A model generated the notes under the pieces. That model saw only the letters and a list, made by a program, of their open reading frames with translations, was not told the origin of the DNA and did no database searches. From positions 1 to 48,773 of the forward strand of contig JAUYMY010000058.1 of the NCBI GenBank assembly GCA_030699385.1: DNA of 48,773 nt. The letters run 5' to 3'. This DNA comes from Methylobacter sp. (GTDB lineage Bacteria; Pseudomonadota; Gammaproteobacteria; Methylococcales; Methylomonadaceae). Shown one piece after another: positions 4,649 to 27,694 of the stretch; position 1 is the stretch's first letter; each line of letters opens with the position of its first letter. The position numbers were made by a program, and so were the translations under genes.

Positions 4649-4860
4649 ATGGTCTACTTTTAGCTTTAGTGGGCAATTCTTGGCGTCCTTTCTTTGTCGG
4701 CATCGTTCTAGTGACGCGAAAGAGTGGAAATAAACTGAGTTTGAGTTGTATTTTTAAAGTTAGCGCCTAAGCTTAGATGTTGAATGCCTAGTAATCGCTT
4801 AGATAACCGATATACAAAACCATTCACAACGTGCCTTTTACTTAAACATAGGAAATAAAA

Positions 4861-9344: not shown

Positions 9345-9396
9345 TTTCGCTTAAATTAGTCGCCCTTTGAATTTCCACCACCAACAGAGACATCCC

Positions 9397-12300
9397 ATGC
9401 CGGCAAAGCTACACGTTATCCCCAACGCGGTCACCGAAATAACTTTTCAAGATGCTTCAATGGATATTTGGGACACCAAATACCGCTTAAAAACCAAAGA
9501 GGGCGAGGCTATCGACGGCTCCATTGACGAGACCTACCAACGGGTTGCTAAAGCACTTGCCGACGTGGAAAAAGGCAAAACCCGGCAGGAACAATGCTAC
9601 AAAGACTTTCTATGGGCATTGCGCCAGGGCGCCATTCCGGCGGGACGCATTACCTCCAATGCCGGCGCTTTGGCGCACAAACCGGCAACATCGACCATTA
9701 ACTGCACCGTCTCCGGCACCATCGCCGATTCCATGGACGACATTTTGCATAAAGTGCATGAAGCAGGCTTAACATTAAAAGCGGGCTGCGTTGCACCTGA
9801 TACCTTGGTATGCACCGAACAAGGTTACGTGACTGCAGAACGTGCCGTGACTGAACAGCACCAGCATATTCTTAGTTATGACCGCGAATCGCATTGTTTT
9901 GAAATGCGCCCTATTCTCAAACACATGACTACCGTAGTGCCTACTGATGAAAACATCGAAATAGGCTCTCATCTGGGTACGCTGACCACATCAATCAAAC
10001 ATCCTGTACTGGTCTACAGAGATGAGAAATTACAATACGTTCGTGCCGACGACATTAATCAAACTGACGCCTTAATTCATTTTCAATTGCCTTGGCAGGC
10101 TGATAAAAAAACAGCATTAAAAGCGTGGTTTGCCGGTGCGCATCTAGGCGATGGCTCAGCCTACGAAAAACATATTGATTATGCACCTACGCGGGAACAA
10201 TGGCAGCTCAAGGCCAATATCTACGGCAAACGTCTGGTTTTTAAAATACGCGCCGCCGAACGCGAAGTTGTTGAGCAGTACGCACTATTTTTTCAACAGT
10301 TTTGTGATTGCCAGGCCAAAGTCGTAGCGGCCACCACACTCAATAACACACCAGTCTGGGATTTCACGGTTGCTAGTTTTAAAGCCAGCGCAGCCAGTGA
10401 ATTGATTGATCACCAAACCGGAAAAAAAAGCCACACGCTGAAAGTGCCGCAATGGATAAAACAAGCGCCAGACCGCCATTTTTTACCTTTTCTGGCCGGT
10501 CTAATTGACACCGACGGCACTATTTCTACAGAACGCGGCAGCGCCATTTTAAGTTGCCAAAGTTCAACTTTTGCCGATGAAGTTCAAAGTTTACTCGCTT
10601 TATTTGGCGTCCACGGTGCGATCACCGCAAGAAAAGCACGCTCACATGAGTATAACGGCGCACTAATTAATGATAAGGGCGGCTACAGTCTCAAAATATC
10701 CGATTCCGATTTTTTACACAATCTTGCTACGTTTATGGCAGATAGCGGCAAAAAGAGCCGGATTAAAAAACACAAGTCTCAAGCCGGACAATACGATCAT
10801 TATGTAATGAGTTCGGCCTTGCGAACCGCGCTTGACGCCCAGCAAACTGAGCTAAGCCATCTCGAAAAACAAGCTCTTGGGTTTTATCACGGCAAGCATC
10901 ATCAAGCCACGGTAAGCCGGGTGTACTTGGATAAATGGGCTAAAAAATTCCCCGAATTACACGATAAGATCACTCTTGTCCGTCAACTGCGTCCGGTAAA
11001 AACGATTAAGCGTAATTTGGCTATTGGCGAGACCTTTTATGATTTTACCGTTGATAAACATAACAACTATTTAGCTGGCAATAATGGCTTGGCAGTCATC
11101 CATAACTGCGGTATAGGCTATGAATTTTCAACCTTGCGCCCTAAAAACGCCTATGTTTCCGGAGCCGGTGCTTACACCTCCGGCCCGCTGTCGTTCATGG
11201 ATATTTACGACAAAATGTGCTTCACCGTATCGTCAGCAGGCGGCAGACGCGGCGCGCAAATGGCGACATTCGATGTCGGCCATCCCGATGTGGTCGAATT
11301 TATCCGCGCCAAACGCGAAGACGGGCGACTGCGCCAATTCAACTTGTCGCTGTTGATTACATCTGAGTTTATTGAAGCGGTAAAAGGCGATCAACCCTGG
11401 TCTCTGTCATTTCCGGTCAGCGAAAAAGAAGTGCAACTGGACAACCTGGATCTGAGTGATGCACAGCTCATCAAATGGCGCGACCTGCCTTACATCGACG
11501 GTTATGTCCTTAACGAAGACGGCCTGGTGGCTTGTAAAATCAGCAAAACCATGCCCGCGCGCCGCTTGTGGGACATCATCATGAGCTCGACTTACGACTA
11601 CGCCGAACCCGGATTTATCCTGATCGACAAGGTCAACGAGATGAACAACAACTGGTTTTGCGAGAAGATTCGAGCCACAAACCCATGTGGTGAACAGCCC
11701 TTGCCGCCTTACGGTTCGTGCCTTCTAGGCTCAATCAACCTGACCCGCTTCGTCAAAAAACCGTTCACTTCCGACGCATCGTTCGACTGGGACAATTACC
11801 GCAAAGCCATCAAAATTTTCACTCGTATGCTCGACAACGTCGTTGAAATCAACGGCCTGCCGCTGCCCCAGCAACGCGAAGAAATCCTCACCAAACGCCG
11901 CCACGGCATGGGCTATCTGGGGCTAGGATCAACCGTCACCATGATGGGCATGAAATACGGCGATAACGCGTCCTTACAATTTACCGAAGAAGTGACCAAA
12001 GTGCTGGCCGTAGAAGGCTGGAAAGCCGGGCTTGCCCTGGCCAAAGAAAAAGGCGCGGCGCCGATTATGGAGCAGTTGTTTACCGTCACCGGCGAAATGC
12101 TGCACAAACGCCCGGAAATGATTGCCGATGGCTATAAAATCGGCGACCAAATACCCGGAAAATTGCTGCACAGCAAATACAGCCGTTACATGCAACAACT
12201 GGCGCAAGTAGAACCCGAACTGGTTGGCGAATTGATTGAAACCGGCGCCCGCTTTACCCATCACAGCTCGATTGCGCCGACCGGGACCATTTCGCTGTCG

Positions 12301-12867
12301 CTCGCCAATAACGCCAGCAACGGCATCGAGCCGAGTTTTGCCCATCATTACTCGCGCAACGTGATCCGCGCCGGTAAAAAATCCAAGGAAAAAATCGACG
12401 TGTTTTCCTTTGAACTGCTGGCTTACCGCGAGATGATCAACCCTGATGCAATGCCGTACAGCGAAGATGCCGACAAGAAACTGCCGGATTATTTTATTGC
12501 GGCGGACGATGTAACGCCCAAACAGCATGTTGATATTCAGGCGGCGGCGCAAAAATGGATTGATTCGTCAATCTCGAAAACCGCCAACGTGCCGACCGAT
12601 TATCCATACGAAGACTTCAAATCGATTTATGAATATGCCTATGACAAAGGCCTGAAAGGCTGCACCACATTCCGCTTTAACCCCGAAGTGTTCCAGGGCG
12701 TCTTGGTTAAAGAATCGGATCTGGAAAACACCACCTACCAATTCACCTTGGAAGACGGCCATGTGATGGAATTTAAAGGCAACGAAGACGTCGAATACGA
12801 CGGTGAAATCCACAGCGCCGCCAATTTGTTTGATGCGTTGAAAGAGGGTTATTACGGGAAGTTTTGA
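9397..12867 (+). CDS. nrdJ: Class II (B12-dependent) ribonucleotide reductase catalytic subunit, intein-containing
   Basis: This is the large part (NrdJa) of a split adenosylcobalamin-dependent ribonucleotide reductase, which makes deoxyribonucleotides without needing oxygen. The reading frame has 1156 codons; removing the 440-residue intein leaves 716 residues. Extein signatures are INCTVSGTIADSMDDIL (redox Cys near residue 103), AGCGIGYEFSTLRP at the splice junction, the NPCGEQPLPPYGSC loop with the catalytic Cys, and SSIAPTGTISL. It ends in ANLFDALKEGYYGKF and lacks the usual C-terminal Cys tail, which NrdJb provides. I chose the ATG at 9397 with AGAGA upstream; a TTG ten codons earlier is less likely. 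Two NrdR boxes lie upstream. Confidence 0.95.
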   Translation: MPAKLHVIPNAVTEITFQDASMDIWDTKYRLKTKEGEAIDGSIDETYQRVAKALADVEKGKTRQEQCYKDFLWALRQGAIPAGRITSNAGALAHKPATSTINCTVSGTIADSMDDILHKVHEAGLTLKAGCVAPDTLVCTEQGYVTAERAVTEQHQHILSYDRESHCFEMRPILKHMTTVVPTDENIEIGSHLGTLTTSIKHPVLVYRDEKLQYVRADDINQTDALIHFQLPWQADKKTALKAWFAGAHLGDGSAYEKHIDYAPTREQWQLKANIYGKRLVFKIRAAEREVVEQYALFFQQFCDCQAKVVAATTLNNTPVWDFTVASFKASAASELIDHQTGKKSHTLKVPQWIKQAPDRHFLPFLAGLIDTDGTISTERGSAILSCQSSTFADEVQSLLALFGVHGAITARKARSHEYNGALINDKGGYSLKISDSDFLHNLATFMADSGKKSRIKKHKSQAGQYDHYVMSSALRTALDAQQTELSHLEKQALGFYHGKHHQATVSRVYLDKWAKKFPELHDKITLVRQLRPVKTIKRNLAIGETFYDFTVDKHNNYLAGNNGLAVIHNCGIGYEFSTLRPKNAYVSGAGAYTSGPLSFMDIYDKMCFTVSSAGGRRGAQMATFDVGHPDVVEFIRAKREDGRLRQFNLSLLITSEFIEAVKGDQPWSLSFPVSEKEVQLDNLDLSDAQLIKWRDLPYIDGYVLNEDGLVACKISKTMPARRLWDIIMSSTYDYAEPGFILIDKVNEMNNNWFCEKIRATNPCGEQPLPPYGSCLLGSINLTRFVKKPFTSDASFDWDNYRKAIKIFTRMLDNVVEINGLPLPQQREEILTKRRHGMGYLGLGSTVTMMGMKYGDNASLQFTEEVTKVLAVEGWKAGLALAKEKGAAPIMEQLFTVTGEMLHKRPEMIADGYKIGDQIPGKLLHSKYSRYMQQLAQVEPELVGELIETGARFTHHSSIAPTGTISLSLANNASNGIEPSFAHHYSRNVIRAGKKSKEKIDVFSFELLAYREMINPDAMPYSEDADKKLPDYFIAADDVTPKQHVDIQAAAQKWIDSSISKTANVPTDYPYEDFKSIYEYAYDKGLKGCTTFRFNPEVFQGVLVKESDLENTTYQFTLEDGHVMEFKGNEDVEYDGEIHSAANLFDALKEGYYGKF
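9787..11106 (+). mobile_element. LAGLIDADG intein within NrdJa (440 residues)
   Basis: A protein intron that splices itself out of NrdJa. It begins with Cys131 (block A, CVAPDTLVCTEQGYV) and ends with His-Asn before an extein Cys (VIHN|C), the residues needed for splicing. Block B is LTTSIKHPVLVYR. In the middle are two LAGLIDADG motifs, FAGAHLGDGSA (about residue 245) and FLAGLIDTDGTIS (about 365-377). Both keep their acidic residue, so the homing endonuclease may be active. Block F/G is YDFTVDKHNNYLAGNNGLAVIHN. The insertion splits LKAG from CGIGYEFSTLRP, a highly conserved stretch of the enzyme. Class II and class I reductases are known intein hosts. Confidence 0.95.
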
Positions 12868-20375: not shown

Positions 20376-22323
20376 ACGTCTGACGCAAATTATTTCGCTA
20401 GCGCTACTGCTTGGCCTGAATCCGGCCTGGTCTACGGAACAGGAAATGGATGCGGTCACCTTGCAATTAAAATGGAAACATCAATTTCAATTTGCCGGTT
20501 ACTACGCCGCCAAGGAAAAAGGCTTTTATCGAGAAGCTGGGCTTGATGTCACTATTGTTGAAGCGGCTCCCGGCGTAGATCCGGTTCGGGAAGTGATAGC
20601 CGGGCGCGCACAATTCGGCGTCGGCACCAGTGAATTGATCCTGAATCGCTATCGCGGCGATCCCGTTGTCGTACTCGGGGTTATTTTTCAGCATTCTCCG
20701 TTGAGCCTGATTACGCTGGCCGAATCCGGGCTCGACAATATCCACAAACTGGTCGACCGCAAGCTGATGATCGAGCCCAATTCCGCGGAATTATTCGCCT
20801 ATTTGTTCCAGGAAGGTTTTACGCCCAAAGCTTTCAGTTTGCAGCATCACAGTCTGGATTTAAACGATCTGCTGTCCGGCAAAATCGATGCCATGTCGGT
20901 GTATGTGACCGACGAGCTGTATCAACTCAAACAGCAAGGCCGGGCGTTTAACCAATTCAGCCCGCGCATGAGCGGCATTGATTTTTACGGCGACAATTTT
21001 TTCACCTTGGACGAGCAACTGGCAGAGCATCCGCAACGAGTCAAAGCATTTAGGGCGGCGACCTTGCGCGGCTGGCTCTATGCCATGCAAAATCCCGACG
21101 AAATCGTGCAGCTGATTTACCAGCGCTATTCACAACGCCACAGCATTGAGCATTTGCAGTTTGAGGCAGAAGCCATGCATGAGTTGATGCAGCCGGAACT
21201 GATCGACCCCGGCTATATGAATGCCGGGCGCTGGCAGCATATCGTCAACACTTACCGGCAGCTTGGGCTGTTACCGGCGGATTTCAATGTCGAACCGATG
21301 CTGTTTTTTCCTAACAGCGAACTTGACTTGAAAAAACTCAAAATCAAACTTTATTATGCAGCAGCCGGATTGTCGCTGTTAGCGTTGCTGTCGGTGATTT
21401 TGTTCCGCTTTTATCGCAAAGCGCGCATCAATGAAGCCCGTCTTAACACCATGTTCGACCATGCGCCGCTGAGCTTGATTGTGCTTGATGATCAAAACAG
21501 GATTCAAGGTTGGAACGCGGAAGCCGAAAAGACGTTTCTCTGGCGCGCCGAAGAGGTTCTGGGAAAACATGCTTCGATCATGGTGCCGCCGGCAAAACGC
21601 CAGGACATCGAAAAGATCCTCGCCGCCGTACATAAAGACCGTGCCATTTCTCATACCAAAAACATCAACATCAAGCAGGATGGCAGTGAGATTCTGTGCG
21701 AATGGCTGAACGCGCCGTTCAAGGACAAACACGACCACTCGAACTTTATCATCTGCATGGCGCGCGACATTACCGAACAAAGACGCCTGGAGCAAAAGCT
21801 TGAATACGCCGCGCATTACGACAACCTGACCGCACTGCCGAACCGGGCGCTGATTCTTGAACAGCTGAAACAAGTGCTGGCGACTGCAGCGCGGCAAACA
21901 AGCAAACTGGCCATTCTGTTTCTCGACCTGAACGGATTTAAGGCGATTAACGATACCTTGGGGCATGAAGCCGGCGACACCCTGTTATTGACGGTGGCAC
22001 AGCGGCTGCCGCAAGCCATCCGCGAATGTGACTATGCAGGCCGACTGGCTGGCGACGAATTTCTGGTGATTTTGCAAGACATCGGTGCGCGTGACAACGC
22101 AGAAAAAGTAGCCGGTAAATTGCAGGAATTGATTAGCCAGCCTTGTCTGCTTAAAGAGCAGTCTATTTGCGTGAGCGCCAGCATCGGCATCAGTCTTTAT
22201 CCCGATGATGCGACCGACATCAATACCCTGATTCATCAAGCCGACCAAAGCATGTATCAAGCCAAACAAGCCGCCCTCGCCGTTAAGGCGGCTAAGGAAA
22301 TGGAACAGAATCTGCCGATATAA
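20368..22323 (+). CDS. THI5/NMT1-PAS-GGDEF membrane sensor
   Basis: A 651-residue signalling protein. After a signal peptide comes a periplasmic NMT1/THI5-like domain (about 35-315), beginning QLKWKHQFQFAGYYAAKEKG, a family that binds pyrimidines of the thiamine pathway and similar ligands. One membrane helix (about 327-350) follows. Then come a PAS domain (about 360-480, ending in MARDITEQRRLEQ) and a GGDEF domain (about 490-645) whose signature reads AGDEF. The first Gly is replaced by Ala, a change known in some active cyclases, so c-di-GMP synthesis is probable but not certain. I take the GTG at 20368, giving an 8-base overlap with the deaminase; a TTG at 20344 is an alternative. Confidence 0.85.
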   Translation: MIKRLTQIISLALLLGLNPAWSTEQEMDAVTLQLKWKHQFQFAGYYAAKEKGFYREAGLDVTIVEAAPGVDPVREVIAGRAQFGVGTSELILNRYRGDPVVVLGVIFQHSPLSLITLAESGLDNIHKLVDRKLMIEPNSAELFAYLFQEGFTPKAFSLQHHSLDLNDLLSGKIDAMSVYVTDELYQLKQQGRAFNQFSPRMSGIDFYGDNFFTLDEQLAEHPQRVKAFRAATLRGWLYAMQNPDEIVQLIYQRYSQRHSIEHLQFEAEAMHELMQPELIDPGYMNAGRWQHIVNTYRQLGLLPADFNVEPMLFFPNSELDLKKLKIKLYYAAAGLSLLALLSVILFRFYRKARINEARLNTMFDHAPLSLIVLDDQNRIQGWNAEAEKTFLWRAEEVLGKHASIMVPPAKRQDIEKILAAVHKDRAISHTKNINIKQDGSEILCEWLNAPFKDKHDHSNFIICMARDITEQRRLEQKLEYAAHYDNLTALPNRALILEQLKQVLATAARQTSKLAILFLDLNGFKAINDTLGHEAGDTLLLTVAQRLPQAIRECDYAGRLAGDEFLVILQDIGARDNAEKVAGKLQELISQPCLLKEQSICVSASIGISLYPDDATDINTLIHQADQSMYQAKQAALAVKAAKEMEQNLPI

Positions 22324-22410
22324 ATGGGTACCGACCAAATCTAACGATAGGCCCGGCAGCGGTTTTTCAGTTATAATCCCCGACTTTTTATTGCCCAAGA
22401 GCATTAAACC

Positions 22411-23325
22411 GTGTCCAGCATAAACAACGACTTATCGACTTTTCAGGGGCTCATCCTGGCCTTACAGCAATACTGGTCAGCTCAAGGCTGTATTTTATTG
22501 CAACCTTTGGATCAGGAAGTGGGTGCCGGAACCTTTCATCCCGCCACCTTTTTACGCGCCATCGGCCCTGAGCCCTGGAACGCCGCCTATGTGCAGCCGT
22601 CGCGCCGGCCGACCGACGGCCGCTTCGGCGAAAATCCCAACCGGCTCCAGCATTACTACCAGTTTCAGGTGGTTTTAAAACCGTCCCCCGATAATATCCA
22701 GGAGTTGTATTTAGGTTCGTTGCGCCATTTGGGCCTGGATTTGCTCGAACACGATGTGCGCTTTGTCGAAGACAATTGGGAATCGCCCACGCTCGGTGCC
22801 TGGGGTTTGGGCTGGGAAGTCTGGCTGAACGGCATGGAAGTGACGCAGTTCACCTATTTTCAGCAAGTCGGCGGCCTGGAATGTCGGCCGATCACCGGCG
22901 AAATCACTTACGGCCTGGAGCGCATCGCGATGTACTTGCAGGGCGTTAAAAGCGTTTACGATCTGGTCTGGACTAACGGCCCATTCGGCACCGTCACTTA
23001 CGGCGACGTATTTCATCAAAACGAAGTGGAAATGTCCGCTTACAACTTCGAACACGCCAACGTTGATTTTATGTTCGAGTGCTTCAATACCTACGAGAAA
23101 GAATGCACCAAGCTGATTGAGTTGAACTTGCCGCTACCGGCTTATGAAATGGTGTTGAAAGCTTCGCATGCGTTCAACCTGCTGGATGCGCGCCATGCGA
23201 TTTCGGTTACCGAGCGGCAACGTTATCTGTTACGGGTCAGGAATTTAGCCAAATCGGTTGCTGAGGTTTATTACCAACGCAGGGAATCGCTGGGATTTCC
23301 GATGTGTCAGAGTTCAATCGAGTAA
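22411..23325 (+). CDS. glyQ: Glycine-tRNA ligase alpha subunit
   Basis: The alpha chain of the tetrameric bacterial glycyl-tRNA synthetase, which holds the class II catalytic core. The 304 residues include [18 protein letters not shown] near the start, motif 2-like [38 protein letters not shown] and [11 protein letters not shown]. The start is GTG at 22411. In most relatives glyS follows directly; here two AT-rich genes stand between them, the first starting three bases after the glyQ stop. Confidence 0.97.
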
Positions 23326-23328
23326 TTC

Positions 23329-24351
23329 ATGTCTACTTTTTTCAACTCGGTACATATTACCAATTTCAAATCGCTTAAAGATGTCACTTTAAGCGATTGC
23401 AAGCGGATTAATTTGCTGATTGGAAAGCCGAATGTTGGAAAATCGAATATTCTTGAGGCGATTGGGTTATTTGGTTTGGGTTATAGCCGGTTTAATAAAA
23501 ACAATAAACTGACACAATTTATAAGATTCGATAATACCCCGGAATTGTTTTTTGACGGCAATACCAGCGCACCTATTACTGTTGCAATTAACAATGATGG
23601 CAATGAACCCAGCTGCCGTGTTGATTATCAAAATTTGAGCCATACCCATCTTTTTGATAAACAGCTGGTCATATCAATTTTTATTGATGGCGCGCAGTCC
23701 AAATTAACCGTAAATAATGATTTTGAGTTAGACAGTGTTGAAGTGGGTGGAACTTACAACATTAAACAGTATAAGTTTGTCCATAACCCGGCTTTTGAAA
23801 AATTAAATATCCCGTATTTAATGCCACCTTTTGGAGCAAACTTACTTAATGTTATTCAAGAACACACGCAGTTACAAAAAAAACTACGCGATATTTTTTC
23901 TGCATATAACTTAAAATTAGTCATTGATACTGCAAACAATGAATTAAGAATACAAAAAGAAATAAAGGACGGCTTTGTATTCTCGCTTTCTTACAGTTCT
24001 ATAGCGGACACTCTGCAAAGAATAATATTTTTCAAAGCCGCCATTACTTCCAATGAAGAGTCGATTTTGTTATTTGAAGAGCCGGAAGCGCATTGTTTTC
24101 CGCCTTATATCGCTCACTTTACCCAGGAAGTTATAAACTCAACTAGCAATCAGTTTTTTATTACTACGCATAGCCCTTATGTGCTCAATGATTTTTTGGA
24201 GTATGAGCGCGATGATGTTGCTATTTATATGTTTGATATAAAAGACGGTCAAACCGTTATTAAAAGACTGACTGATAGCGAGTTGAATGATGTTTATGAA
24301 TATGGGTTAGACTTGTTTTTTAATGCCGAGCTATTCACGGATGAAATTTAA
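23329..24351 (+). CDS. AAA/ABC-type ATPase of a two-gene cassette
   Basis: A 340-residue RecF/OLD-like ATPase. Residues 7-18 (SVHITNFKSLKD) and the Walker A GKPNVGKS at 32-39 are typical, as are Walker B SILLFEEPEAH (about 245-255) and the H-loop TTHSPYVLND (about 279). There is no long coiled coil. A signature-like region YSSIADTLQRIIFFKAA precedes Walker B. It starts three bases after glyQ with no visible promoter and overlaps the next gene by 11 bases. The sequence is clearly more AT-rich than glyQ and glyS, which suggests transfer. It resembles the ATPase half of split OLD-like or PARIS-like defence pairs, but I cannot name the family. Confidence 0.8.
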   Translation: MSTFFNSVHITNFKSLKDVTLSDCKRINLLIGKPNVGKSNILEAIGLFGLGYSRFNKNNKLTQFIRFDNTPELFFDGNTSAPITVAINNDGNEPSCRVDYQNLSHTHLFDKQLVISIFIDGAQSKLTVNNDFELDSVEVGGTYNIKQYKFVHNPAFEKLNIPYLMPPFGANLLNVIQEHTQLQKKLRDIFSAYNLKLVIDTANNELRIQKEIKDGFVFSLSYSSIADTLQRIIFFKAAITSNEESILLFEEPEAHCFPPYIAHFTQEVINSTSNQFFITTHSPYVLNDFLEYERDDVAIYMFDIKDGQTVIKRLTDSELNDVYEYGLDLFFNAELFTDEI

Positions 24352-24901
24352 TATTAATATTTGCGTTATTCCTGAATGTTATATCGATACTAATTTGATT
24401 GAGACCCTTGTTCCTCCTGACAGAATCGGCAATACATGTGGTTATAACCATCAGCTTGGCTGCAATAAAGTTGTTGACGAAATGATGGGGAAATTAAAAG
24501 ATGGTTTCGCTGTAGGTATTTTAGATAATGATAAAAGAAAGTTATCTCGCACGTCTGAATTTATATTGCTTACTGAAAAACAACGATTAAAGTTATATAA
24601 ACATCCAGAAAAGAATCATTACTTGATATTTCATCCGCCAATCGAACAATGGATTATTGATATAGCGAATGATGTAAGCATTAGTTTAGATGCGCCTGAA
24701 TATGATTTGCCAACAGCACATAAAGAACTGATATATGAAACAAAAGTCAATGTGAAGAGTAAAAACGATCAACGGTTTAAACGCTTATTCCGCGATCTGC
24801 AAAAGCAAAATGCACTGGGTATCAATTTGTTGGCTAATTGGATAAGGTATTTAAAAGATCATCCTTATAGTGCTGACAAACACGAATTAATAAACTTATA
24901 A
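24341..24901 (+). CDS. TOPRIM-like partner of the AAA ATPase
   Basis: A 186-residue protein that I do not recognise as a named family. I chose the ATG at 24341 (MKFNINICVIPECYID), which overlaps the ATPase stop; an in-frame ATG at 24323 lies deeper inside that gene. The order of acidic residues suits a TOPRIM-like nuclease core: Glu12 after a hydrophobic strand, and Asp62-x-Asp64 in FAVGILDNDKRK after a second strand. Residues 96-125 hold YLIFHPPIEQWIIDIANDV. The C-terminus is Lys-rich. It probably acts with the ATPase upstream as effector. The fold is inferred from the motif pattern only. Confidence 0.65.
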   Translation: MKFNINICVIPECYIDTNLIETLVPPDRIGNTCGYNHQLGCNKVVDEMMGKLKDGFAVGILDNDKRKLSRTSEFILLTEKQRLKLYKHPEKNHYLIFHPPIEQWIIDIANDVSISLDAPEYDLPTAHKELIYETKVNVKSKNDQRFKRLFRDLQKQNALGINLLANWIRYLKDHPYSADKHELINL

Positions 24902-24923
24902 CGACATATAAAGGCATCTCATC

Positions 24924-27041
24924 GTGACCGCACAACACTTACTTTTCGAATTAGGTTCAGAAGAACTGCCGCCCAAGACCTTGCTAAAACTGAGCAACGC
25001 TTTATTGAACGGCATCGTTCAAGGCCTTAACGCTGCCGAACTGACGTTTACCGGCAGCAAGGCTTACGCCACGCCCCGGCGTCTGGCGGTTTTCATCGAA
25101 AACCTGTCCACCGCGCAACCGGACAAAACCGTCGAAAAGCGCGGCCCTGCCCTGCAAGCGGCATTCGCGCCGGACGGCACGCCCAGCAAGGCGGCTTTAG
25201 GTTTCGCCGTCAGCTGCGGCACTACGTTCGACCAATTGGAGCGCCTACTTACCGACAAGGGCGAATGGCTCAGTTACACGCAAGCGATCAAAGGTCAGGC
25301 GACTGAAAATCTGGTTCCCGACATCATCCGCCAAAGCATCGCCGGATTGCCGATTGCCAAACGGATGCGCTGGGGCAGTTTCACGACCGAGTTTGTCAGA
25401 CCGGTACATTGGGCGGTCTTGCTTTACGGCGATAGCGTCATCGAGACCGAAATCCTCGGACTCAAAACCGGTGCAGCCACGCAAGGCCATCGCTTCCACG
25501 CGCCGCAACAAATCACGCTAACCAAGCCGGAAGATTACGCCGATGCCTTGTACCAACAAGGCCGCGTGATTGCCGATCTTGAGCAACGGAAAAGCATTAT
25601 CCGCGAAGCCGCGCAAAAAGCTGCCGACGCAGTAGGCGGTATTGCCCATATCGAAGACGATTTGCTGGAAGAAATCGCCGCGCTGAACGAATGGCCGGTG
25701 CCGATTACCGGCACTTTCGACCCGCGCTTTTTGGAACTGCCGCCGGAAGTGCTGATTACCACGATGCAGACCAATCAGAAATATTTTCCGGTTAAAAATG
25801 CCGACGGCGGTTTGCTGGCCAATTTCATCACCTTCAGCAATATCGAAAGCACTAACCCTAAATCGATACAGCAAGGCAATGAACGCGTAGTGACCCCGCG
25901 CCTGTCCGATGCGGAATTTTTCTGGAATCAGGATCGTAAAAAAAATCTGGCCGACCGCGTCGAAAGCTTGTCCAGCGTGGTTTTCCAGGAAAGTTTGGGC
26001 ACGGTTTACGATAAAACCAAACGCGTGCAAAATCTGGCTAAATTTATCGCCGGACATTTAGGTGCCGATGTTGAACTGGCGGAACGCGCCGCATTGCTGG
26101 CGAAAACCGACCTGATGACTGAAATGGTCGGCGAGTTCGGTAACCTGCAAGGCATTATGGGGCGCTACTATGCACTGGCGGACAACGAGCCGAAAGCCAT
26201 CGCGCTGGCGCTTGAGGAACAGTATTTCCCCAAACAATCCGGCAGCCCGACTGCCGGCAGCGCCATGGGTCAAATTTTGGCGATTGCCGAAAAAATAGAC
26301 ACGCTGGCCGGTATTTTTGCGGTCGGCCTGATCCCGACCGGCGACAAAGACCCTTATGCCTTGCGCCGTGCCGCCTTGGGCATACTCCGCACCATCATTG
26401 AAAATCAGCTCAATATCAATATTGTCGAGTTGACGGAATTTGCAGCCGCTCAGATTAAACTTGAGCCTAGCCATATTGGCTCTGGATTTTTAAAAACCCA
26501 GATAACCATGAGTTCTCCTGACGACCCGACTACAGCCGACCGGGTGATTGATTTCATTTTCGACCGTCTGAAAGGTTATTGCCTGGATCATGGTTACACG
26601 GCCGATGAATTCGATGCTGTCATCACTGTCAGACCTGCCGAACCACTGGATTTCATGCAACGTTTGCAGGCGGTTAAAGCGTTCAGGCAACTGCCCGAAG
26701 CGGAAAGTCTGGCGGCGGCAAACAAGCGCATCCGCAATATCCTGAAAAAATCCGAGTCACAACCGGCGGCCAGCGTGGGTGCCTTGTTGGAAACGCAGGA
26801 AAAACAGTTGCTGCAAGCCGCCTTGCAATCTGGCGATGACATCAAGCCGTTACTGGCGCAGCGCGATTATCAGGGCACGCTGAACCGGCTGGCAACATTG
26901 CGCAATGATGTCGATGCGTTTTTCGATCACGTCATGGTGATGACCGACGACCTGGATTTGCGCGCCAACCGGCTGGCTTTGCTGAATTTGTTGTCCGAGC
27001 AGTTTTTGACCTGCGCCGACATTTCCAAATTGCAATCGTAA
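24924..27041 (+). CDS. glyS: Glycine-tRNA ligase beta subunit
   Basis: The beta chain of glycyl-tRNA synthetase, which contributes tRNA binding. The 705 residues start with a GTG (MTAQHLLFELGSEELPPKTL), the strongly conserved GlyS opening. AAAGG lies upstream. Further landmarks are YATPRRLAVFIENL, MRWGSFTTEFVRPVHW, YFPVKNADGGLLANFITFSN and a C-terminal anticodon-binding-like domain with DDLDLRANRLALLNLL. Its separation from glyQ by about 1.6 kb is unusual. Expression must either read through the cassette or start within it. Confidence 0.97.
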   Translation: MTAQHLLFELGSEELPPKTLLKLSNALLNGIVQGLNAAELTFTGSKAYATPRRLAVFIENLSTAQPDKTVEKRGPALQAAFAPDGTPSKAALGFAVSCGTTFDQLERLLTDKGEWLSYTQAIKGQATENLVPDIIRQSIAGLPIAKRMRWGSFTTEFVRPVHWAVLLYGDSVIETEILGLKTGAATQGHRFHAPQQITLTKPEDYADALYQQGRVIADLEQRKSIIREAAQKAADAVGGIAHIEDDLLEEIAALNEWPVPITGTFDPRFLELPPEVLITTMQTNQKYFPVKNADGGLLANFITFSNIESTNPKSIQQGNERVVTPRLSDAEFFWNQDRKKNLADRVESLSSVVFQESLGTVYDKTKRVQNLAKFIAGHLGADVELAERAALLAKTDLMTEMVGEFGNLQGIMGRYYALADNEPKAIALALEEQYFPKQSGSPTAGSAMGQILAIAEKIDTLAGIFAVGLIPTGDKDPYALRRAALGILRTIIENQLNINIVELTEFAAAQIKLEPSHIGSGFLKTQITMSSPDDPTTADRVIDFIFDRLKGYCLDHGYTADEFDAVITVRPAEPLDFMQRLQAVKAFRQLPEAESLAAANKRIRNILKKSESQPAASVGALLETQEKQLLQAALQSGDDIKPLLAQRDYQGTLNRLATLRNDVDAFFDHVMVMTDDLDLRANRLALLNLLSEQFLTCADISKLQS

Positions 27042-27065
27042 ATGCGCGAATCACCGGCATCGGCA

Positions 27066-27132
27066 TTGTGGGAGCGGCCACCCGGCCGCGAACAGTACGC
27101 GATTGTTCGCGGCCAAGTGGCCGCTCCCACAA
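27066..27132. repeat. REP-like palindromic element after glyS
   Basis: TTGTGGGAGCGGCCAC at the left pairs perfectly with GTGGCCGCTCCCACAA at the right. Inner arms CGGCCGCGAACA and TTGTTCGCGGCC pair as well, around an 8-base loop. This is the layout of a REP/BIME-type element, similar in style to the TGTGGGAGCGG elements of pseudomonads. It lies between glyS and gmhB and may stabilise the glyS message. Confidence 0.85.
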
Positions 27133-27142
27133 CTTAGAACTC

Positions 27143-27694
27143 ATGCCTGAAAACCGCTACGTTTTGCTCGATCGTGATGGCGTCATCAATCAGGATTCCG
27201 ATGACTTCATCAAATCGCCGGATGAATGGCTGCCGATTGCAGGCAGCCTTGAAGCGATAGCCCTGTTCAATGCGCAAGGCTATAAAGTCGTTGTCGTCAC
27301 CAATCAATCGGGCATTGCGCGGGGGTTGTTTGATGTCGCCACGCTGGCAAAAATCCATGCAAAAATGCAGCGTTTGGTGAGCGACAAAGGCGGCAAAATC
27401 GAGGCCATTTATTTTTGCCCGCATGGCCCGGACGATGATTGCGCTTGCCGCAAACCCAAACCGGGCTTGCTTGAAGCCTTCGCAGCTGAGCATCATGTCA
27501 GCCTGAACGGCATCGCGGTTATCGGCGATTCGTTGCGCGACCTGCAGGCTGCAGAGGCAGTCGGTGCCAGTCCGATACTGGTCAAAACCGGCAAAGGCCG
27601 ACTAACCTTAGATAAAAACCCTAACCTCAACATTCCTGTTTTTGAGAATTTATATGACGCAGCAACCTTCATCACCTCAAGACCTACGGCCTAA
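27143..27694 (+). CDS. gmhB: D-glycero-beta-D-manno-heptose 1,7-bisphosphate 7-phosphatase
   Basis: A HAD-family phosphatase of the ADP-heptose route for LPS core synthesis. The ATG at 27143 gives 183 residues; earlier in-frame codons run into the REP element. HAD motif I is LLDRDGVINQD (catalytic Asp10 and Asp12), motif II VVTNQSG, and motif III/IV GDSLRDLQAA. The zinc-binding loop CPHGPDDDCACRKPKPG is diagnostic for GmhB. The acyltransferase gene starts inside its last 41 bases, an arrangement seen in other gammaproteobacteria. Confidence 0.92.
   Translation: MPENRYVLLDRDGVINQDSDDFIKSPDEWLPIAGSLEAIALFNAQGYKVVVVTNQSGIARGLFDVATLAKIHAKMQRLVSDKGGKIEAIYFCPHGPDDDCACRKPKPGLLEAFAAEHHVSLNGIAVIGDSLRDLQAAEAVGASPILVKTGKGRLTLDKNPNLNIPVFENLYDAATFITSRPTA

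Follow-up and report, generated by a model that had tools for sequence, protein, structure and literature searches.

Two small overlapping genes, here called A and B, are inserted between glyQ and glyS in Methylobacter sp. (contig JAUYMY010000058.1 of assembly GCA_030699385.1), and we propose, with a probability of roughly 0.7, that they work as a phage-defence switch of the split OLD/PARIS kind, carried at a site that repeatedly receives cassettes. The stretch analysed, hereafter the window, is 48,773 nucleotides (nt) long, and all features of the locus lie on its plus strand. Gene A (23329..24351) codes for an OLD/RecF/SMC-type ABC ATPase of 340 residues, the presumed sensor or controller. 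Gene B (24341..24901; start ATG at 24341 chosen as fitting the aligned homologues) codes for a stand-alone TOPRIM-like protein of 186 residues, the presumed nuclease effector. Together they total 526 residues. The slot is bordered on the left by glyQ (glycyl-tRNA synthetase alpha subunit; 22411..23325) and on the right by glyS (beta subunit; 24924..27041). A follows glyQ by 3 nt and overlaps B by 11 nt, and the 22-nt spacer behind B (24902..24923) replaces the usual glyS leader, with glyS then beginning with GTG.

These open reading frames (ORFs) bear out the earlier note on this DNA, which had described an insert of two overlapping genes with the same gaps, more AT-rich than both neighbours and without a visible promoter. 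The windowed GC content is 0.33-0.38 inside the cassette versus about 0.49-0.59 over the neighbouring genes. No excess of promoters was found, with four sigma-70-like sites on both strands of positions 22000-25300 versus 6.8 expected from shuffles. Of these, three lie within the cassette on the plus strand, where A contains one and B two. The pair may be expressed from the glyQS transcript.

At every locus where B could be read on both sides, the two genes are adjacent. B relatives are encoded at 118 genome loci, of which the best 80 were kept. B is immediately preceded by a gene for an A-like ATPase in 78 of these, 77 found by phmmer (A at most 300 nt upstream) and one (L093) by ORF reading; a contig edge forms the start of the other two loci (L073, L089). 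Because of this regularity, the pairing exceeds what chance would give. Of 201 genomes of the order Methylococcales, 18 carry A (E<=1e-30), and B (E<=1e-3) is present in exactly these 18. Among 398 genomes of the phylum, A was found at E<=1e-40 in the window's own genome only, which also codes for two weaker A-like ATPases elsewhere (E 5e-7 and 6e-6).

In Methylococcales the pair sits at the glyQ-glyS junction or directly before glyS in 18 of 18 genomes. In G214, A-B directly precedes glyS, and glyQ, on another contig, keeps the GFPMC end typical of occupied sites (L123, L126). Among the best 80 loci, 17 are from Methylococcales, 15 with both borders and two (L022, L036) with glyS only, at contig ends. 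The remaining loci, mostly from Bacteroidota, carry the pair in many contexts, some behind a helix-turn-helix (HTH)-like gene. Ten neighbouring genes were picked by eye, without a control; PADLOC models are matched at E<=1e-15 by seven of them (AbiLi, AbiLii, NsnB, LmuB, HEC-02A and two methyltransferases) and not by the other three. In one locus (L052) an AbiL pair adjoins A-B, and its AbiLii matches at 7e-21. As separate observations, the small HTH-like gene before A in four Bacteroidota loci (L033, L040, L045, L051) is a possible dedicated regulator that is not present in the window's slot, and in L075 (Bacteroidetes, from position 4783) A-B lies 63 nt ahead of a gene that reads as nuoG-like, possibly another housekeeping operon.

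Surveying the junction itself showed that occupancy is the exception. Among 132 genomes with glyQ and glyS in the listed rows, on the same contig and strand, 110 have an empty junction with a gap of 16-35 nt (median 26). The other gaps are one of 118 nt, one of 731 nt and 20 above 1.5 kb. Gaps above 700 nt are found in 21 of 113 genomes of the window's family and in 0 of 19 from other families. Close relatives have an empty junction, a point that the earlier note had proposed to check.

ATPase/small-protein pairs fill 20 of the 21 large insertions of the family. Type 1 cassettes, that is, A-B, account for 15 of the 21. Type 2 cassettes consist of another ATPase and a protein with the pattern 'ILCED...D-x-D...NIESW'; they occur alone in G020, G010, G036 and G175, and upstream of type 1 in G159, G126 and G149 (and in L037). 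The single type 3 cassette (G006, L098) codes for an AAA_15 ATPase and a 263-residue 'LVEGE...DSD' protein. The last slot (G202) holds a UPF0149/PDC-S12 gene only. Additional genes beside type 1 include UPF0149 (G047, L036), BRO-N (G206) and PD-DExK (L036). In the ORF scan of the glyQ/glyS strand, the named ORFs fill the inserts, and no integrase was seen by ORF reading, which was not a profile search.

The other cassettes also resemble defence genes. Type 2 ATPases match the PADLOC profile HEC-01A (best E 8e-30), and some of their effectors match HEC-01B (best 2.7e-7, the rest weaker or none). The type 2 effector family has the invariant residues E15, D74, D76, E119 and W121, and it aligns with B in register from D-x-D to E-x-W, with an hhalign probability of 69% and E 4.5e-5 in one comparison. 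Its profile gave no meaningful match to PDB (best E 0.14); among 26 type 2 effectors, the Pfam families DUF3226 and DUF4276 were matched in three each, at best E values of 0.004 and 0.006. The type 3 ATPase matches the profiles of PtuA and AriAB at about 1e-34. The protein encoded next to it matches the C-terminal part of AriAB (2.8e-4), and this cassette, which occupies the same junction, may be related to PARIS. The proposal that the pair uses a synthetase operon for constant expression oversimplifies matters, since this hotspot also receives other ATPase/effector pairs, and outside Methylococcales A-B is found in many contexts.

A function tied to glycyl-tRNA synthetase, such as tRNA-Gly quality control or regulation of the synthetase, would account for the confinement of all 18 pairs of the order to this operon and for the different glyS start in occupied sites. 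We consider it very improbable, as the same pair has other surroundings in other phyla, the same slot holds different cassettes and most readable junctions (110/132) hold nothing at all.

The borders differ between the two states. In all 28 parsed empty junctions (31 short junctions read), the glyS ATG is just behind or overlaps the end of glyQ. In all 26 occupied rows (24 distinct genomes), glyS starts with GTG behind a different leader, with an additional in-frame ATG two codons after the GTG in G156. The glyQ end reads GFPMC... in 26 of 26 occupied rows, whereas a GFPMLTEQGA-like tail is common in empty sites. Because the leader and start codon are thus exchanged, any loss of the cassette must spare glyS. 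Such a loss has occurred in G181 (L109). Its gap of 118 nt is the scar of a former cassette, with a match (72% over 86 nt, E 5.5e-6) to the spacer and the 3' end of a type 2 effector gene.

When the slot is scored as occupied or empty on a tree of glyS from 62 genomes, this label requires at least nine changes (bootstrap 9-11; shuffled mean 19.7), and five slot states require 15, counts to which recombination of glyS itself, which adjoins the slot, could have added. On this tree the window, which carries type 1, has as its sister G020, which carries type 2. The two-gene layout and the replaced leader and start codon of an essential gene would also suit a selfish, toxin-antitoxin-like cassette kept by addiction, with no role in immunity. 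This reading appears unlikely, given that the G181 scar and the empty sisters show loss or absence to be tolerated, and that a hypervariable ATPase middle, described below, is not expected of an addiction module.

Variation within A is uneven. Among 16 Methylococcales A proteins, median pairwise identity is 80% at residues 1-66, 28% at residues 74-150 (23548..23778 in the window) and 76% at residues 215-340 (23971..24348); that of B from the same 16 is 58%. The middle varies in length from 76 to 135 residues, with no stop met in any of the 16. A similar dip, to 20-29% at residues 81-160, is found in 37 A proteins from other phyla (the subset with E<1e-60 of 62 A proteins from other loci), and the type 2 ATPase has a weaker one (33-45%).

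Profiles of DNA identity in 75-nt blocks are mosaic. Between L027 and L028, glyQ and the start of A are 86-93% identical, the middle 37-69%, and the end of A, B and glyS 81-97%. L015 and L028 have the reverse pattern, in that identity stays at 84-98% through the middle and is 46-76% in B and the end of A. L018 and L019 are 98% identical in B, 96% in the A C-terminal part and 25% in the middle. Judging from these mosaics, the hypervariable middle has been exchanged by recombination. In Mantel tests on the 16 copies, the A C-terminal part co-varies with B (r=0.72, a value reached in 0 of 5000 permutations) and the N-terminal part with the middle (0.49, 1 of 5000). DNA adjacency may account for both values. 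The telling result is that the middle and the A C-terminal part are not coupled (0.06); the value for the middle and B is 0.00. The pattern of the middle is that expected under selection to recognise changing partners.

Profile matches and the head fold place A among the OLD/RecF/SMC-type ABC ATPases, in keeping with its former description as RecF/OLD-like and with its motifs (Walker A GKPNVGKS, LLFEEPEAH and THSPYVL). The head fold is equally close to SMC/Rad50 heads and to OLD heads, RecF and Rad50 are among the PDB profile matches, and in PADLOC A matches AbiLi at 1.2e-19. A has 2731 relatives at E<=1e-30 versus 336 for B at E<=0.01, and the more distant A relatives may have other partners. 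No protein of the length of an ATPase-TOPRIM fusion is present among 120 listed of the 2731 A homologues, the longest having 435 residues.

Given this proximity to RecF and Rad50, A-B might be an accessory of DNA repair or chromosome maintenance, an ATPase with a nuclease subunit that merely moves between genomes. We find this improbable: the pair is present in few genomes of the order (18/201), the occupied state has been gained or lost repeatedly, the middle of A is hypervariable, and other pairs with matches to defence profiles occupy the same slot.

B is TOPRIM-like by its predicted fold. The predicted model comprises an OLD-type TOPRIM domain and a helical C-terminal region, and via re-alignment of Foldseek candidates it aligns best to OLD C-terminal regions. 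The residues E12 and D62-x-D64, singled out previously for standing in the order of a TOPRIM core, are invariant in 48 aligned sequences including that of the window, as are D16 and E102. Sequence-based and structural searches gave little else. Foldseek of B against PDB returned no match at E<=0.001, and the best E of the B profile against PDB sequences was a meaningless 1. B has no match in Pfam or PADLOC at E<=1; a Pfam scan of 48 B sequences gave scattered weak matches only, with no DUF4435 among the 25 of 27 families shown. This effector family is without a match in Pfam, NCBIfam and PADLOC 2023. Searches of phages, plasmids and viral contigs found no B. We also considered whether the AT-rich DNA is a prophage remnant and rejected this, as B has no phage match and the slot in the window holds A and B only. 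In two loci (L029, L084) B is interrupted beside a full-length A frame; effector loss may occur, or these may be assembly errors.

Several known systems share features with A-B. According to PMC10568477, PARIS (AriA-AriB) is a proposed class 4 OLD system with separate genes, and PMC12409363 describes a TOPRIM tRNase that stays bound to an ATPase sensor until the latter senses a phage protein: the AriA hexamer sequesters AriB until a trigger such as Ocr appears, and AriB then cleaves tRNA. A-B has the same anatomy, with an AriA-type ABC ATPase gene adjoining a separate gene that is TOPRIM by predicted fold only. However, it is not PARIS, because B matches no AriB or DUF4435 profile; the profile comparison proposed in the earlier note thus sets the two apart. 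The junction location and the allele mosaics are not described for PARIS in the accessible parts of these papers.

The OLD proteins of classes 1 and 2, including Gabija GajA, likewise combine an ABC ATPase with a TOPRIM domain, and the acidic residues of B follow the order of their two-metal site. In contrast to the single polypeptide of OLD, A and B are two ORFs in the window and are likewise separate genes at the other loci where the pair was read. hhalign of B with four OLD-like single sequences (L190-L193) gave no match. No GajB helicase gene lies beside A-B, whose neighbours are glyQ and glyS; a survey of GajA gave two loci that were not used further. AbiL (AbiLi-AbiLii) has the two-gene layout and an ATPase resembling A, but B has no AbiLii match at E<=1. 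Similarly, the candidate system HEC-01 pairs an ATPase with a small protein and is matched by type 2 cassettes at the same junction, whereas B itself has no HEC-01B match.

If A-B is a split defence switch, B would be kept at rest by A until the hypervariable middle of A (residues about 74-150) recognised a trigger derived from the phage or induced by it. The resulting change, relayed via the conserved C-terminal part of A, would release B or switch it on. As a nuclease, B would then cut either tRNA, like AriB, or DNA, like OLD, presumably by two-metal catalysis with E12/D62/D64 and D16/E102, and phage growth would be stopped at the cell's expense.

A broader proposal, which we hold with about even confidence, is that the glyQ-glyS junction of this methanotroph family is an integrase-free immune slot in an essential translation operon, where whole ATPase-TOPRIM cassettes are exchanged. 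A sensor module (A N-terminal part and middle) and an effector module (A C-terminal part and B) would recombine separately. A-B would then be an innate receptor that is shuffled combinatorially, and the host operon would govern both its expression and the initiation of glyS. It would be a case of presumed immune genes riding an essential operon with no visible mobile element.

If the defence reading is true, A-B adds a very small split OLD-like system (526 residues) with a profile-unmatched effector family. The natural series of recombinant sensor alleles makes recognition by OLD/PARIS-type ATPases directly testable, because natural pairs such as L018/L019 share near-identical effectors and have very different middles. 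Because ATPase/small-protein pairs make up nearly all large insertions (20/21), the junction also provides a simple search rule. No published account of the A-B pair or of a glyQ-glyS hotspot was found in the open-access literature; glyQ, glyS and 'phage defense' co-occur in one open-access paper, on a tRNA-modifying enzyme.

Two further features of the window were noted. Between glyS and a HAD-family phosphatase gene (26927-27144), short ORFs on both strands code for similar peptides (RPRT..RPSGRSHN-like), which points to an inverted repeat element. Finally, a ribonucleotide reductase ORF of 1166 residues (9367-12867, plus strand) appears, by reading only, to contain an intein, with a LAGLIDADG-like FLAGLIDTDG motif and an HN/C junction.
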